Positions 31,478-36,631 of a DNA stretch of 55,426 nucleotides are shown in pieces (the first letter of the stretch is position 1; every line of letters starts with the position of its first letter). The stretch comes from an uncultured Clostridia bacterium (GTDB lineage Bacteria > Bacillota > Clostridia > Christensenellales > Borkfalkiaceae). The notes beneath the pieces were generated by a model that worked only from the letters and a program-made list of their open reading frames with translations, was not told where the DNA came from and did no database searches. The stretch is from contig CALVHR010000048.1 in the NCBI GenBank assembly GCA_944328495.1, positions 1 through 55,426 on the forward strand, written 5' to 3'. The position numbers and the translations under genes are program-made.

Positions 31478-32311
31478 TTAAACATATTTTTGAATATTGT
31501 CCTGCAAAAATTTGCAAACGGCATCTTCTTCCGAATATCCGATGACTCCCGTTGCGACTTTTTTTAAGGAATCTAATGCGTTCTGTACGGCATACGATTC
31601 GTCGGATGCTCGAAACAGACTCTCATCGTTGATCCCGTCCCCAAACGATACCATTCGTTCCGCGCCGAGCAAAGTTTTAAGATGACCGGCGGCGGTGCCT
31701 TTTGACGTATTGCTCGGCATGATTTCGCACCAATAATCAGTTTGGTACGTTTCTTGTTCGTATATACAGCGAATATCGAAACTCGCCTGAATATGCGCAT
31801 AGAGAGCGTCTAAGTGCTCTTTCTTTGCGATACAGGTAAAATAAAAAATATCGTCTCCGATCAAATCATCCGCGCTTTTGACGGGGTTTAGGCGGCTGTC
31901 TCCGCGCCTTCTTGCCAAGTAGCGGAGCATTCCTTCCGTCTCTTGTCCTTCTACCCAAGAAACTTTTTCGTTCCCTGCTTGCGAAAAAGAATATATAAGC
32001 GGCTGTACGTCAAATTTTATAAGGGCATCGCGAATATAATCTAACTGTCCGCGGTTGAAATGATTATTATAAAGCATCCTACGGCTCCAAGGTTCCATTA
32101 TAACCGCGCCGTTGTATAAAATCACGGGTAAATTCTGCCGCAATCCCCAGCAGGCTTTTGCCGCAGAGTTCAGCGAGCGCGCCGTGGCATAAGTGAAACA
32201 CAACCCCCGCGTATCAATCAGTGTATTCAGGTTTTTCAGGCTGTAGTCGGATATATTTTCCCTCGACGTTAAAAGCGTTCCGTCGAGATCGGAAATAAAA
32301 AGAGTTTTCAC
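31478..32311 (-). CDS. HAD-superfamily Cof-type phosphatase
   Basis: A 277-residue HAD hydrolase of the Cof/YwpJ type, acting on sugar phosphates or similar. Motif I is 'FISDLDGTLL' with both Asp residues, motif II 'YATARS', and motif IV 'FGDGINDESLF'. The cap is of the C2 class. I prefer the GTG at 32311 (MKTLFIS) because GAGG lies 7 bp upstream; the TTG at 32317 would be too close to it. Start sits about 20 nt after the predicted transcript start. It is likely cotranscribed with mscL. The substrate cannot be told. Confidence 0.88.
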   Translation of the reverse strand: MKTLFISDLDGTLLTSRENISDYSLKNLNTLIDTRGLCFTYATARSLNSAAKACWGLRQNLPVILYNGAVIMEPWSRRMLYNNHFNRGQLDYIRDALIKFDVQPLIYSFSQAGNEKVSWVEGQETEGMLRYLARRRGDSRLNPVKSADDLIGDDIFYFTCIAKKEHLDALYAHIQASFDIRCIYEQETYQTDYWCEIMPSNTSKGTAAGHLKTLLGAERMVSFGDGINDESLFRASDESYAVQNALDSLKKVATGVIGYSEEDAVCKFLQDNIQKYV

Positions 32312-32337
32312 GTTCAAGCCTCAGTCGGATTTGTTCA

Positions 32338-32480: not shown

Positions 32481-33164
32481 TCAGATGTTTTTGCTTTCAA
32501 TACCGTCGTTTAACATAGCGGAAAGGATTTGTTTTTTATAAAAAGATTCCCTTCCGTAAACGCGAGGAATTTCACTTTCATCGCGGATATCCGCTATGAT
32601 TTTTCCGTTTTTTAATACAATAGCGCGATGAGACAGCATGTACGCTTCCTCTGCGTCATGCGTTACAAAAACAGCCGTTCGGCGCTCCTCCCGCCATAGA
32701 CAGGAAAACTCGTCGATCAATCGGATTTTCAATGCCGTATCCAAAGAAGAAAACGGTTCATCCATTAAGATTAATTCGGATGGATGCAAAAACGCGCGGG
32801 CAATGGAAACACGTTGCGCCTGACCTCCCGAAAGCTCCACCGGATATGCGTTCCGTTTATCGGCAAGCCCTACTCGTTCAAGCATATCCTCGATCTTTTT
32901 TTCGTCACGGCAGATCAGGCGTAGATTTCCATGCACTGTAAGGTTCGGGACTAAACGCGGTTGCTGAAAAATATATGAACAGGACAATTTCGGCGCTTCA
33001 CCCGTAAAATCTGTCGTACCCGCCAAAATGTTCAGCAACGTAGTTTTCCCGCAGCCGCTTTCGCCTAAAATACACGTGATCTTTCCTTCTTCCAATGTCA
33101 GATCAAAATTTTCATAGACAGAAAGCGCCCCGTATCTTTTTGTGATTTTTTTCAGTTCATACAT
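32481..33164 (-). CDS. ABC transporter ATP-binding protein (nitrate/taurine/sulfonate-type)
   Basis: The 227-residue ATPase of an importer. Walker A is 'GESGCGKTT', Q-loop 'IFQQPRLVP', signature 'LSGGQAQR', Walker B 'LILMDEP', and switch His in 'VTHDAEEA'. These fit the SsuB/TauB/ThiZ group. It overlaps the permease gene by 8 bp and closes the operon that starts at 35279. Its protein is slightly shorter than SsuB. Confidence 0.9.
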   Translation of the reverse strand: MYELKKITKRYGALSVYENFDLTLEEGKITCILGESGCGKTTLLNILAGTTDFTGEAPKLSCSYIFQQPRLVPNLTVHGNLRLICRDEKKIEDMLERVGLADKRNAYPVELSGGQAQRVSIARAFLHPSELILMDEPFSSLDTALKIRLIDEFSCLWREERRTAVFVTHDAEEAYMLSHRAIVLKNGKIIADIRDESEIPRVYGRESFYKKQILSAMLNDGIESKNI

Positions 33165-33963
33165 GAGAAGTACTTCTCCTGTTTGCTTTCGTCCCTCGCC
33201 CCTTTGTCCATCGATCGGTGATGCGCGTGAGCAAGCCGAGCAAGAACTCCAAAAGACCTCCCACGATCAGCATGACGATGGTAATCGCAAACATTTCCGC
33301 CATCTGCGAATACATTGCGGCATCATGCATCATTCCCCCGATGGAACGGAAGGTACTGGAAAGAACTTCTGCGGAGATCATCACTTTCAGTGTAAGAGAA
33401 AGGTTTGCCCCTGCCTGCGCAAAAATGCCCGGCATCATCTGCGGAATGTAGATGTGTACAAGGCGGGTCTTTTTGTCGAGCCGATAAACATCAGCCATTT
33501 CAATGAGCTTCGGATCAATTCCCTTGTAAGCAGTGATCAACTGTGTATATGTCAAGGGCAAAAGCATCATCAGCGCAACAATTACAGGAGCTATGCGCGG
33601 AGTTGTCCAGATCAAAAGCATGAGAGTGACCGCCATTGTCGGCAAAGAGCGCAGGACGCCGATAAAAGGCGCAAAAAAACGGTAAAACCGCATACTTAAA
33701 GCGCTCAAAGACGCAAAGATCACCGCGAGAACAAATGCAAGCAACCATGCATAGATCGTGCGCCAAACCGTAAGAGCAAAAGACAGCCAAAATCGCGAGG
33801 AAATCAGCTGTGCGCCGATACTCGCGATCGTATCCGAAAAAGACGGGATGATATACTCGTTGCGCACTATCGCGTGCGCGATCAGCCAAACTGCCCACAT
33901 CACCGCCACGGCCAGCACGGAGAAAAGATAATTCAGTTTTTTGTCTCTCTCCATGCTGTTCAT
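33157..33963 (-). CDS. ABC transporter permease (SsuC/TauC/ThiX-like)
   Basis: A 268-residue inner-membrane subunit with about six membrane segments. The EAA-type loop that docks to the ATPase is around 'ELIEMADVYRLDKKTRLVHIYIPQMMPGIFA' shortened here: key part 'MADVYRLDKKTRL'. It lies 7 bp downstream of the binding protein gene. Membership in the BPD_transp_1 family is clear; the substrate is not. Confidence 0.9.
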   Translation of the reverse strand: MNSMERDKKLNYLFSVLAVAVMWAVWLIAHAIVRNEYIIPSFSDTIASIGAQLISSRFWLSFALTVWRTIYAWLLAFVLAVIFASLSALSMRFYRFFAPFIGVLRSLPTMAVTLMLLIWTTPRIAPVIVALMMLLPLTYTQLITAYKGIDPKLIEMADVYRLDKKTRLVHIYIPQMMPGIFAQAGANLSLTLKVMISAEVLSSTFRSIGGMMHDAAMYSQMAEMFAITIVMLIVGGLLEFLLGLLTRITDRWTKGRGTKANRRSTSHV

Positions 33964-33970
33964 TTATCCT

Positions 33971-34984
33971 TTATACTCCATAGAAAAAGCTGTCCGCCAT
34001 TGTGAATGTTGCCCCGCCGCTGACGGAAGAAAGCTTGGTCAGGAACGTTTGTACGCCCTCTTTGCATTGTGCCGCGCTTTCAAAGCGTATCGCACAATTT
34101 GCAATAACTGTTTTGGAAAGATTTTTTGCATTAAATGTCGGAGACTGTCCATCAGGAAGATGTGACTGAATTGCACTGACTATGGTATTTGCATCCGTTG
34201 TTTCTGCAACCAGCCAATCCGCATTTGCAGATACGGCCTGGGTAAACGCAGAAATCAGGGCCTCATTTTCTTCGATCAGAGAGTTCTTAGCGACAAGAAC
34301 GGCCTGCGGATATCCGCCTTCTCCGTACAGCGCCTGCAAATCCGCAACGACAGAAAATGTTTTGATAGCGTTTGTTTTCGCACTCACTACAGGTTCCGCA
34401 GCCACAATAAAATCGTACGGAGCTCCCGCAACGATCTGTGTCGCAGGATCGGAAACGTTGAGCAGATTTACTTTGTCCGCCGCAGCCTGGCTTGCATCTT
34501 CGATCACTGCGTATTCGATGCCGTGATCGGCAAGGACGAGCTTCAATACCAATCCCACAAAGCTGTTCAGCTGGATGCAGCCCACTTTTTTCCCTACAAG
34601 AGTATCCAAAGTATCAGCCGTCAATTCTTCGGACGTCGTTTCCGATACGATATAAATATTTCCGTGCGTCACTGTGCCGAGCATGCGATAAGCATTCCCG
34701 TTTCCCAACGCCTGTGCGGCGGCATTTACGGGAAGAACGCAAAATTCCGCATCGGGATTTTCACCGGTTACATATGTCTGTATCGTATTTGCATTGACAA
34801 CATGATATTGTACGTTTGCATCAAAATCGTTCCCCTCGCTCATGAGCTGTGCCATGGAAAGAGCGGGAGCACCGTCGGGCATATACACATCGATTGCCGC
34901 ATCGTCTTTTCCGCATGCGGAGAAAAATACTGCCCCGAATGCGAGCATCAATGCGGAGAGCACTACTGCAAGAATCTTTTTCAT
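33971..34984 (-). CDS. ABC transporter substrate-binding lipoprotein (NMT1/ThiY-SsuA-like)
   Basis: A 337-residue lipoprotein with signal peptide and lipobox F-S-A-C (Cys25), then 'AIDVYMPDGAPALSMAQLM'. The fold appears to be the type II binding-protein group that holds nitrate, sulfonate, taurine and pyrimidine-precursor binders. 'TGENPDAEFCVLPVNAAAQAL' lies near what would be the ligand cleft (about 75-95). AAGGAG precedes the ATG. It follows the TM1266-like gene by 46 bp. The ligand is not evident; no thiamine or sulfonate enzyme is nearby. Confidence 0.88.
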   Translation of the reverse strand: MKKILAVVLSALMLAFGAVFFSACGKDDAAIDVYMPDGAPALSMAQLMSEGNDFDANVQYHVVNANTIQTYVTGENPDAEFCVLPVNAAAQALGNGNAYRMLGTVTHGNIYIVSETTSEELTADTLDTLVGKKVGCIQLNSFVGLVLKLVLADHGIEYAVIEDASQAAADKVNLLNVSDPATQIVAGAPYDFIVAAEPVVSAKTNAIKTFSVVADLQALYGEGGYPQAVLVAKNSLIEENEALISAFTQAVSANADWLVAETTDANTIVSAIQSHLPDGQSPTFNAKNLSKTVIANCAIRFESAAQCKEGVQTFLTKLSSVSGGATFTMADSFFYGV

Positions 34985-35030: not shown

Positions 35031-35279
35031 TTAAAATTTCGAGATCAGTGTCTTAGCGGAAACATTTTCGAGCATTCCGAGTTTCCCGGTCAGCGCATTT
35101 ACCGTTTCCTGCGACGCGTCGAGAACAATCGAAAGAACGGAAATATGTTTCTCTTTATAAGGGATTCCCATTCTTCCGATGATATAATCACCAAACTCAT
35201 GCAAAACGGAATTTAATTTTTCCGCCGCGGAGAGATCGGTCACTATGATGCTGACAACTGCGATCCTGTTTTCTGACAT
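35031..35279 (-). CDS. TM1266-like ACT-fold protein (putative iron-only hydrogenase system regulator)
   Basis: An 82-residue protein: 'NRIAVVSIIVTD', 'LNSVLHEFGDYIIGRMGIPY', 'ISVLSIVLDASQETVNALTGKLG'. This matches the TM1266 family, a small ACT/NikR-like ferredoxin-fold protein usually found beside [FeFe]-hydrogenase maturation genes. None is present here; it heads an ABC importer operon. The ATG at 35279 has GGAGG exactly 7 nt upstream, and that ribosome site is buried in a perfect hairpin (see leader). A longer reading to 35321 would translate the hairpin and is rejected. Confidence 0.82.
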   Translation of the reverse strand: MSENRIAVVSIIVTDLSAAEKLNSVLHEFGDYIIGRMGIPYKEKHISVLSIVLDASQETVNALTGKLGMLENVSAKTLISKF

Positions 35280-35393
35280 AAAAAAACCTCCTTTTTTACC
35301 GCGGTAAAAAAGGAGGCGCAAATGAATTTACATCCTTGTATCTCCCCTTTACCGTCGGGACACACCCTTCGATTCAGGCTGATTGTCAAATTC
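35280..35393 (-). promoter_or_regulatory. Riboswitch-like leader with SD-sequestering hairpin/terminator
   Basis: The ~114-nt leader of the TM1266-ABC operon. A perfect 30-bp palindrome (35287-35316; arms CCTCCTTTTTTACCG and complement) contains the GGAGG of the first gene in its 3' arm and is followed by seven U and the ATG, so it can act as terminator and as ribosome-site mask. Upstream, CGGTAAAGGGGAG (35342-35354) can pair with the 5' arm, with one bulge and two G-U pairs, freeing the GGAGG. GAATTT (35388-35393) and AAATTC (35324-35329) enclose the upstream domain, which can form CCT/AGG and GGG/CCC hairpins. It matches no riboswitch class I know. Confidence 0.65.
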
Positions 35394-35399
35394 TGCTAT

Positions 35400-35428
35400 A
35401 TTATAGCGAAACAGGGAAAAAAAATCAA
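35400..35428 (-). promoter_or_regulatory. Promoter of the TM1266-ABC operon
   Basis: Minus-strand TTGATT (35423-35428), 17-bp spacer, TATAAT (35400-35405). The start is about 35393, directly at the outer stem of the leader. Confidence 0.78.
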
Positions 35429-35756: not shown

Positions 35757-36605
35757 TTACCGTGTATTCTTCAGCACATCTTCATAAACAATACGATCTT
35801 TATCGAGAAATACATCAAATACGACACGGATATCATATTTTGATTCGTACAGCCAATTCTTAACCGCTCCTACGGCGATTGCGGCGGCCTCATCGCTCGG
35901 ATAACCGAAAATCCCTGTCGAAATGCAGCAAAAAGCAATGCTGTGCAATTGCATTTCACGCGCCAAATTCAAGCAGGAAATATAGCAGTTGCGAAGAAGA
36001 CGTTCGTCATTTTCCGTTGGCTTTGCAATGACCATCGGGCCGACCGTGTGAATAATATACTTTGAGGGAAGGTTATAAGCCAGCGTGATTTTCGCACATC
36101 CTGCCGGCTCCGACTCACCTTGCGCCCCCATGATCTTGGAACAATCCAATCGCACCTGTACGCCCGCTCGTGAATGAATTACATTGTCGATGCATTTATG
36201 ATGGGGAATAAAACAGCCTAACAGCGAGTTATTTGCCGCGTTTACAATCGCGTCCGCGCGCAATCGGGTTATATCTCCCTGCCATAATGCAATGCCGTCT
36301 TTGTATTCAAAGCCATCGACGTTTACTATGCCGTTTTCAATTGTTTCAGCCCAAAATAATTTATCCTGCAAATCCAGAAAACGATCGCTGACGGGAGTCG
36401 GCAGCCGCTGGTTCAAAAATCCCCAAATAAGATCGCGTTTAACCTTATAAGGATAACTGAACGCCGCTATCTCGTTGCGCTCTTCCAACAATATGCCGAG
36501 CATTTCATCGCAGATCACGCTCTTTTCCTCTTCCTTTAAGCAGATCGGTTTTCGAGGCTTATAATTCAGGTCTATAAAATTCCGATAATCTTTCAAAGTA
36601 AGCAT
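35757..36605 (-). CDS. Zinc-type macrodomain protein (protein-ADP-ribose hydrolase)
   Basis: A 282-residue protein predicted to remove ADP-ribose from protein side chains. The N-terminal ~115 residues are helical; the macrodomain follows with 'GDITRLRADAIVNAANNSLLG', 'IIHTVGPM' and 'ISTGIFGYP'. The insert 'HHKCIDNVIHSRAGVQVRLDC' shortened to its key residues (His, Cys, Cys) matches the metal-binding loop of the Zn-macro group known beside sirtuin SirTM in Gram-positive pathogens. No sirtuin or lipoyl-carrier gene is nearby, so the partner is missing here. The ATG at 36605 has GGAG upstream; the TTG at 36623 lacks a site. Confidence 0.88.
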   Translation of the reverse strand: MLTLKDYRNFIDLNYKPRKPICLKEEEKSVICDEMLGILLEERNEIAAFSYPYKVKRDLIWGFLNQRLPTPVSDRFLDLQDKLFWAETIENGIVNVDGFEYKDGIALWQGDITRLRADAIVNAANNSLLGCFIPHHKCIDNVIHSRAGVQVRLDCSKIMGAQGESEPAGCAKITLAYNLPSKYIIHTVGPMVIAKPTENDERLLRNCYISCLNLAREMQLHSIAFCCISTGIFGYPSDEAAAIAVGAVKNWLYESKYDIRVVFDVFLDKDRIVYEDVLKNTR

Positions 36606-36631
36606 ACGGCAATCTCCGAACAAAACGATTA

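Follow-up and report, generated by a model that had tools for sequence, protein, structure and literature searches.

A conserved leader hairpin of TM1266-importer and TM1266-maturase operons that probably controls H-cluster supply to [FeFe]-hydrogenases

The 5′ leader of an operon for a TM1266-like protein and an ABC importer in an uncultured Clostridia bacterium contains a short, covarying hairpin whose 3′ strand can alternatively pair with one arm of a terminator-type hairpin. We consider it probable that this hairpin represents a conserved class of cis-regulatory RNA controlling the supply of the [FeFe]-hydrogenase H-cluster, either by maturase synthesis or by import.

Results

The leader of the TM1266 operon

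The window is the whole stretch of DNA that was analysed, 55,426 nucleotides long, and the operon lies on its minus strand. The leader has the following parts.

35400–35428, minus strand: sigma-70-type promoter TTGATT-17-TATAAT, read from the sequence (TTGATT 35428–35423, TATAAT 35405–35400)
35346–35378, minus strand: motif core hairpin, with P1 CCU/AGG, a GA/AA loop, P2 AUCG/CGGU, an AA/GA loop, P3 GGG/CCC and a 5-nt loop
35342–35354, minus strand: antiterminator strand CGGUAAAGGGGAG (motif 3′ strand plus GGAG), from the pairing calculation
35302–35316, minus strand: 5′ arm of the terminator hairpin, CCTCCTTTTTTACCG, the alternative partner of the antiterminator strand
35287–35301, minus strand: 3′ arm of the terminator hairpin, CGGTAAAAAAGGAGG, which carries the ribosome binding site
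35280–35286, minus strand: U7 run directly 5′ of the start codon

A preliminary description of this DNA had listed the promoter and a perfect 30-bp palindrome, and both were found again on the minus strand, the promoter at 35428–35400 and the palindrome at 35316–35287, followed by T7 (35286–35280) and the ATG of the TM1266-like gene (35279–35277). The minimum free energy of the window leader was −41.9 compared to −28.3 ± 3.8 for shuffles (z −3.6), and 0 of 200 shuffles were as good. TATAAT-like boxes were also seen by eye shortly 5′ of the motif in the leaders of relatives. An aptamer-sized domain of about 58 nt closed by GAATTT/AAATTC had been suggested as well, but this was rejected: the helix (35393–35388 with 35329–35324) occurred in 1 of 50 motif leaders, namely the window's own, and any helix between these flanks beat shuffles (p ≤ 0.05) in 3 of 50. 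The conserved domain is instead the 33-nt hairpin at 35378–35346. Upstream of the leader lies a macro-domain gene (35757–36623, minus strand), and the gene behind it is presumably aconitase-like.

A conserved and covarying hairpin

A shared element was found just 3′ of the promoter in 29 of the first 30 TM1266 loci, the locus without it being L029. Twenty-six of the 29 motif-bearing leaders were aligned (alignment A2, with L004, L006 and L026 left out), and these leaders had been picked by TM1266 homology and not by structure. In this alignment 99.6% of 234 cells were paired, and 6 of the 9 pairs showed changes on both sides. None of 500 shuffles reached four of the five measures, and 10 of 500 did so for further pair types, while slid registers paired only 22–54%. 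RNAalifold, when run unaided on the 26 leaders, gave the same helices plus an invariant U–A pair. The 5′ leader thus contains a conserved, covarying structure of the kind expected of a riboswitch, and the comparison of orthologous leaders that the preliminary description had proposed came out in favour of an upstream hairpin.

The consensus of the motif is CCU-GA-RYYG-AA-RGG/CCY-GA-CRGY-AA-AGG, and the letters of the core loops were near-invariant. The two strands are near-copies of each other (CCY-GA-NNNN-AA-RGG), which gives two like internal loops and, because of this likeness, a pseudo-twofold symmetry of the hairpin. Covariance model R1, which includes the window sequence itself, matched the window at 35381–35334 with 59.5 bits. 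In an alignment of 50 motifs, which was fitted to the model, 96.9% of cells were paired and both-side changes occurred in 7 of 9 pairs; 1 of 500 and 5 of 500 shuffles reached the two counting measures, and the outer P2 pair failed in 11 of the 50. L054, L064 and repeats of loci already included were left out of alignment A4.

Two other models were dropped. A first stem model with ACC/GGU and GUC/GAC met mismatches at these positions, while RYYG/CRGY covaries. A kissing-hairpin model of the two halves was rejected, as the changes in P1 (CC/GG to UC/GA, CU/AG) follow the long hairpin. The Guanidine-II (mini-ykkC) riboswitch also has two near-identical halves, but there they form two hairpins that kiss by their loops, whereas the halves of the motif pair with each other in a single hairpin.

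Competing pairings in the leader

The segment CGGTAAAGGGGAG (35354–35342, minus strand) complements the 5′ arm of the palindrome with a duplex energy of −14.4 kcal/mol, and the earlier proposal that this segment pairs with the other arm was borne out by calculation. In a window transcript ending before the 3′ arm, the antiterminator had a pairing probability of 0.96–1.0, and the fold containing it reached −25.2 kcal/mol compared to −20.9 kcal/mol with the motif forced, so that holding the motif costs 4.3 kcal/mol. Since the 3′ strand of the motif can pair with the 5′ arm of the palindrome, the motif opposes the terminator-type hairpin. The calculated preference for the antiterminator suggests that the default state would be ON and that stabilisation of the motif would turn the operon OFF.

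The platform was then scanned in 49 leaders, 48 of the window's order and L085. A simple scan found a hairpin with a U-run in 47 of them and no hairpin in two, and in 33 of the 49 leaders the ribosome site lay in the 3′ arm with an ATG within 12 nt. In L044, L045, L046 and L053, the hairpin with its U-run ended 34–43 nt 5′ of the next ATG. Mutually exclusive pairing, another feature of riboswitches, is thus present, with an antiterminator duplex that beat shuffles at p ≤ 0.05 in only 24 of 47 leaders and was not better in the other 23. Attenuation of transcription is the best reading of the switch, combined in the window's genus with masking of the ribosome site. The preliminary description had assumed a riboswitch-type leader in which a hairpin masks the GGAGG of the first gene, and this stood in part: the leader is conserved and covarying, the pairings exclude each other and the ribosome site is in the 3′ arm, but the same hairpin is also of the terminator type, and ribosome-site masking would act together with attenuation of transcription.

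A second platform was recognised by eye in L093, L101, L110, L146, L159 and L107, and also in L054, where a copy of the motif stands between TM1266 and the next gene and its last strand is the ribosome site. The P2 strands of intergenic copies read by eye were GGCG/CGCC, GGUA/UACC, UGUC/GACA, GGGA/UCCC and UGUC/GGCA, and a folded motif would mean OFF at these sites too. Upstream of TM1266 in L244, L249, L252 and L254, two copies of the motif were seen by eye in one leader, as in tandem riboswitches. An ordinary terminator-like hairpin that senses nothing would account for the strong hairpin and the U7 run, but we hold it to be very improbable because the upstream core is conserved, covaries and recurs between genes with another platform.

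Comparison with known RNA classes

At Rfam gathering scores, no match was obtained in the leaders of the window, 13 related loci or 11 maturase/importer loci, in agreement with the earlier statement that motifs of the TPP, purine, lysine, SAM, THF, ZTP and fluoride classes are lacking. The best sub-threshold match in the window was PyrR (21.3 bits; gathering score 54), and the window search gave no TPP riboswitch. Elsewhere in the 11 loci there were three matches, including a ZMP/ZTP riboswitch (L163:2819–2901) and a T-box leader (L136:7037–7289).

LicT/SacY RAT and PyrR sites are short protein-bound hairpins with internal loops whose 3′ strand overlaps a terminator pairing. The motif resembles them in being a short internal-loop hairpin with such an overlap, but unlike in those systems no BglG-type or PyrR gene was seen in the window operon. 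The xanthine riboswitch has a consensus that we take to differ from that of the leader motif; it gave no Rfam match here and has another gene context. It is also called the NMT1 motif and thereby shares a name with the protein family of the importer, as far as the relevant section describes it (PMC7373994). The HMP-PP riboswitch (thiS motif) is described, in the section concerned, as a compact element intertwined with an intrinsic terminator (PMC6478431), and the leader is likewise compact and terminator-linked. However, the HMP-PP aptamer is located within the terminator stem, its ligand turns the switch ON and its genes are those for thiazole, whereas here a separate upstream hairpin competes via an antiterminator.

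Genes that follow the motif

The window operon and the gene after it are as follows.

35034–35279, minus strand: TM1266-like protein, putative [FeFe]-hydrogenase system regulator (PF21699, 1e-31; TIGR03959, 111.3 bits; solved relative 2nzc)
33971–34984, minus strand: NMT1/THI5-like substrate-binding protein (PF09084, 1.2e-05; AlphaFold2 pLDDT 90.9)
33157–33963, minus strand: ABC permease (PF00528)
32481–33164, minus strand: ABC ATPase (PF00005)
31478–32317, minus strand: HAD hydrolase after the importer genes (PF08282), probably outside the system

Model R1 matched 26 of 396 genomes of the order, and one of these (G119) was a 23-nt match that was read as chance. Twenty regions were fetched from the order matches, and the motif was followed by the substrate-binding protein and the permease in all 20, by TM1266 in 16 and by the ATPase in 13, with no ATPase match nearby in the remaining 7. 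A HAD hydrolase after the importer was seen in 1 of the 20 (L065), and also in L090, L091 and L101. The substrate-binding gene was next to the motif or after TM1266 in 24 of the 25 motif genomes including that of the window; in G328 the sequence stops at the contig end. Four genomes (G030, G045, G395 and G343) had the motif 94–368 nt 5′ of the substrate-binding gene with no TM1266 between them and TM1266 elsewhere.

Outside the order, the covariance models matched 4 of 391 genomes of the class, three of the window's family and G676 of another order, where the motif (29.8 bits) precedes TM1266-hydG (HydG 916 bits, TM1266 108.6 bits). Model R2 matched 7 of 398 genomes of the phylum: the window, G1046, in which the motif stands just before hydG (30.5 bits), and five others (L168–L172) that were read as chance. 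Few covariance-model matches were found at 42 HydG loci.

TM1266 loci were also collected from named genomes, and the best 80 of 586 confirmed loci comprised 21 order-type importer loci, 25 maturase-type loci, 7 other importer or ECF loci and 27 other loci, two of which (L137 and L138) have a maturase-like neighbour. All 21 order-type importer loci had an R2 match at E ≤ 0.001, and the importer was seen in 19 while two loci were cut by a contig end. With a structural descriptor and 40 shuffles (least p 0.024), the motif was found at p ≤ 0.025 in 11 of 25 maturase-type, 4 of 7 other importer/ECF and 0 of 27 other loci, and at p ≤ 0.05 in 13 of 25, 4 of 7 and 1 of 27, respectively, in a test that is not independent because the descriptor was written after these loci had been viewed. 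Among the seven other importer/ECF loci, which are of other lineages, L141, L153 and L154 had no significant motif. At L163:5868–6815, the motif and TM1266 precede a substrate component of an ECF transporter (PF12822), a second transporter type, in a genome with no HydG over the cut-off.

The descriptor was fixed beforehand for a further 16 HydG operons, taken from the 13 best-scoring HydG genomes and three others, none of which had been used to write it. When TM1266 was the first gene, 7 of 10 operons had the motif at p ≤ 0.02 and 3 missed the threshold, whereas operons without TM1266 in the upstream stretch had none (0 of 6 at p ≤ 0.05; Fisher 0.011). In one of these six (L255), inspection by eye showed a motif 5′ of hydE, and the TM1266 gene of this genome is at another site. 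Since the descriptor requires pairing of P2 and P3, no covariation is claimed from these scans. The maturase-type motifs have diverged, and some of the best descriptor windows (L118, L134 and L149) differ from those chosen by eye; except for that of L155, genes were called hydE-like from their position and an identity of about 25% to HydG. Judged from sequence, related motifs stand before many TM1266-hydE/hydG operons of other Firmicutes, which encode H-cluster maturases. The leader had first been described as that of an importer operon, and TM1266 and the importer do follow it, but the reach of the motif appears wider than that.

Hydrogenases and maturases in the motif genomes

An [FeFe]-hydrogenase domain was found in all 25 motif genomes of the order, in up to five copies, and family profiles gave 0 of 25 over the curated cut-offs for each of HydG, HydE and HydF. 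These genomes are 89–99% complete and mostly MAGs. Below the cut-offs, HydG-like matches occurred in 2 of the 25 (170 and 168 bits) and HydE-like matches in 9 (58 bits or less). HydF-like matches in all 25 were read as other GTPases, because 14 of 14 control genomes gave the same kind of match. Eight of the hydrogenases were read, and the TSC and ExMxCPGGC motifs were present in 8 of 8 and the MPC motif in 7 of 8; we take these patterns to be the H-cluster motifs of the enzyme. By these profiles, then, the importer genomes of the order appear to combine a hydrogenase with absent maturases.

Among 56 more genomes from the genus and family of the window, none had HydG over the cut-off, and 3 of 7 other genomes of the order did (G067, G076 and G092). 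The baseline in the phylum was 130 of 249 genomes, which is the fairer comparison, as six maturase-type genomes had been chosen for HydG beside TM1266 and their 6 of 6 is no test. In a search for HydG only, 0 of 8 genomes were positive among L136, L141, L150, L153, L155 and L163 of other lineages and the near kin L101 and L110, seven with the importer and one with the ECF transporter. An exception is L154 (Anaerocolumna sedimenticola), which has the importer together with HydG; this gene (L231:1530–2948) was matched over two frames, which may reflect a frame change or an error in sequencing. The importer ATPase gene of L155 is followed by a HydE-like one (201 bits compared to a cut-off of 254.6), and L153 has a hydrogenase gene close to both TM1266 and the gene for the substrate-binding protein. 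The arrangement thus shares with the HydE, HydF and HydG maturation system a related leader, the neighbour TM1266 and hydrogenases with H-cluster motifs, but the 25 order genomes have no maturase over the cut-off and the importer in its place.

The substrate-binding protein of the importer is presumably a lipoprotein, with a signal sequence followed by a cysteine. Foldseek with its predicted structure gave 3hn0 as the best match, then PqqT, and ThiY, SsuA and TauA were also among the matches; the 50 matches listed were 10–19% identical to it. A profile match to 3hn0 had an E-value of 1.3e-21. The protein in 3hn0 is BDI_1369 of Parabacteroides distasonis, named a nitrate transport protein by its depositors. 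A choice of substrate from the fold was attempted and gave no decision, as the relatives 3hn0 and PqqT do not fix the substrate. The NMT1/THI5-like domain and the presence of ThiY, SsuA and TauA among the Foldseek matches could mean that the importer takes up a thiamin pyrimidine, a sulfonate or something similar, and that the link to hydrogenase maturation is accidental. We regard this as improbable: the closest solved relatives are 3hn0 and PqqT at the low identities given above, the window has no TPP riboswitch, related motifs precede hydE/hydG operons, and a hydrogenase was found in 25 of 25 genomes of which 0 had a maturase over the cut-off.

TM1266 as a possible partner of the hairpin

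TM1266, which we take to have an ACT/NikR-like fold, was found in 70 of 101 genomes, those of the window and 100 relatives. All 7 motif genomes tested encode it, and four of these have no TM1266 in the importer operon. An action of TM1266 solely in cis was weakened by G030, G045, G395 and G343, whose motif precedes the substrate-binding gene without TM1266 in between. In three of these four, TM1266 stands beside thymidylate synthase- and DHFR-like genes, which we name by their likeness to L121 and presumably correctly. The same neighbourhood, often with an SDR gene and with no significant motif, was seen in L237, L238, L239, L088, L089, L094, L098, L121 and L135, and it may indicate that TM1266 acts outside the hydrogenase system as well. 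TM1266 was also seen near a 2-oxoacid:acceptor oxidoreductase gamma gene (L112, with a similar gene in L158), rnfA (L132) and a GcvT/serine hydroxymethyltransferase fusion (L104).

It is quite possible that no small-molecule riboswitch is involved and that the pseudo-twofold hairpin is instead bound by a TM1266 oligomer, which would thereby repress its own operon as well as others in trans, in the manner of protein-bound attenuators. The near-copy strands with their two like internal loops are consistent with this, as is the fact that 16 of the 20 fetched operons begin with TM1266, and so is its presence in all seven motif genomes tested. The lack of a significant motif in HydG operons without an upstream TM1266 (0 of 6 compared to 7 of 10) points the same way, but TM1266 also stands beside thymidylate synthase and other genes that have no motif.

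To the same degree, the hairpin may act without a protein, as a riboswitch proper whose ligand is a small molecule related to the H-cluster (a precursor, a HydG product or the imported substrate). The small conserved core with its near-invariant loop letters, the double copies seen by eye in four leaders and the two expression platforms argue for such a riboswitch. Riboswitches usually govern biosynthesis and import genes under one motif, and genes of both kinds stand under the motif here. The core is, however, short and simple for a riboswitch, and a riboswitch would not need the link to TM1266. The motif before hydE in L255, with TM1266 elsewhere, fits either explanation.

Discussion

The control of H-cluster supply that we favour would work as follows. 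In the growing transcript, the motif hairpin would compete with an antiterminator in which the hairpin's own 3′ strand is paired to the terminator's 5′ arm. A signal, which may be TM1266 itself or a small molecule related to the H-cluster, would stabilise the motif and prevent the antiterminator, so that folding of the terminator ends transcription and conceals the ribosome site (OFF). If the signal is missing, transcription would run on into the operon (ON). In many other Firmicutes the controlled genes would be TM1266 and the maturase genes hydE and hydG, and in the window genome and its kin they would be TM1266 and an ABC importer that probably supplies what the maturases otherwise provide.

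A more specific proposal is tentative, and we hold it to be somewhat unlikely. Maturase-less Clostridia with [FeFe]-hydrogenases, many of them known from samples of gut and rumen, would use the TM1266-linked ABC importer to salvage a ready-made H-cluster precursor of neighbouring cells, either a HydG product or a diiron complex with carbonyl and cyanide ligands. The RNA, alone or with TM1266, would sense this organometallic precursor and respond by stopping import in the maturase-less bacteria and synthesis in those that have maturases. The boldest suggestion for the imported substance is a diiron complex that is already assembled. Apo-hydrogenase spontaneously takes up a synthetic diiron mimic in vitro, according to the part of the account that concerns this uptake, which makes such an importer chemically sensible (PMC12933642).

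In searches of the main text of open full-text articles, no earlier account of this RNA was found, and the same literature gave nothing on TM1266 with a riboswitch or on maturation genes with uptake and an ABC transporter. Hydrogenase did not occur in the listed papers on riboswitch candidates, and in two papers that contain both riboswitch and hydrogenase the words stand apart. The main text of three motif surveys makes no mention of hydrogenase (PMC11109978, PMC8632094, PMC6429828). Another control of the hydrogenase-maturation genes exists: the relevant part of one study lists predicted Rex sites of Clostridium thermocellum for hydG and for a gene whose annotation is iron-only hydrogenase system regulator (PMC8457756).

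A few species have hydrogenase genes yet lack maturases, and the passage that reports this offers no explanation (PMC3226654). The proposed import is a testable answer to how maturase-less bacteria with [FeFe]-hydrogenases activate the enzyme. If it is true, TM1266 gains a function, and the hydrogen metabolism of gut anaerobes would be under control at the RNA level.
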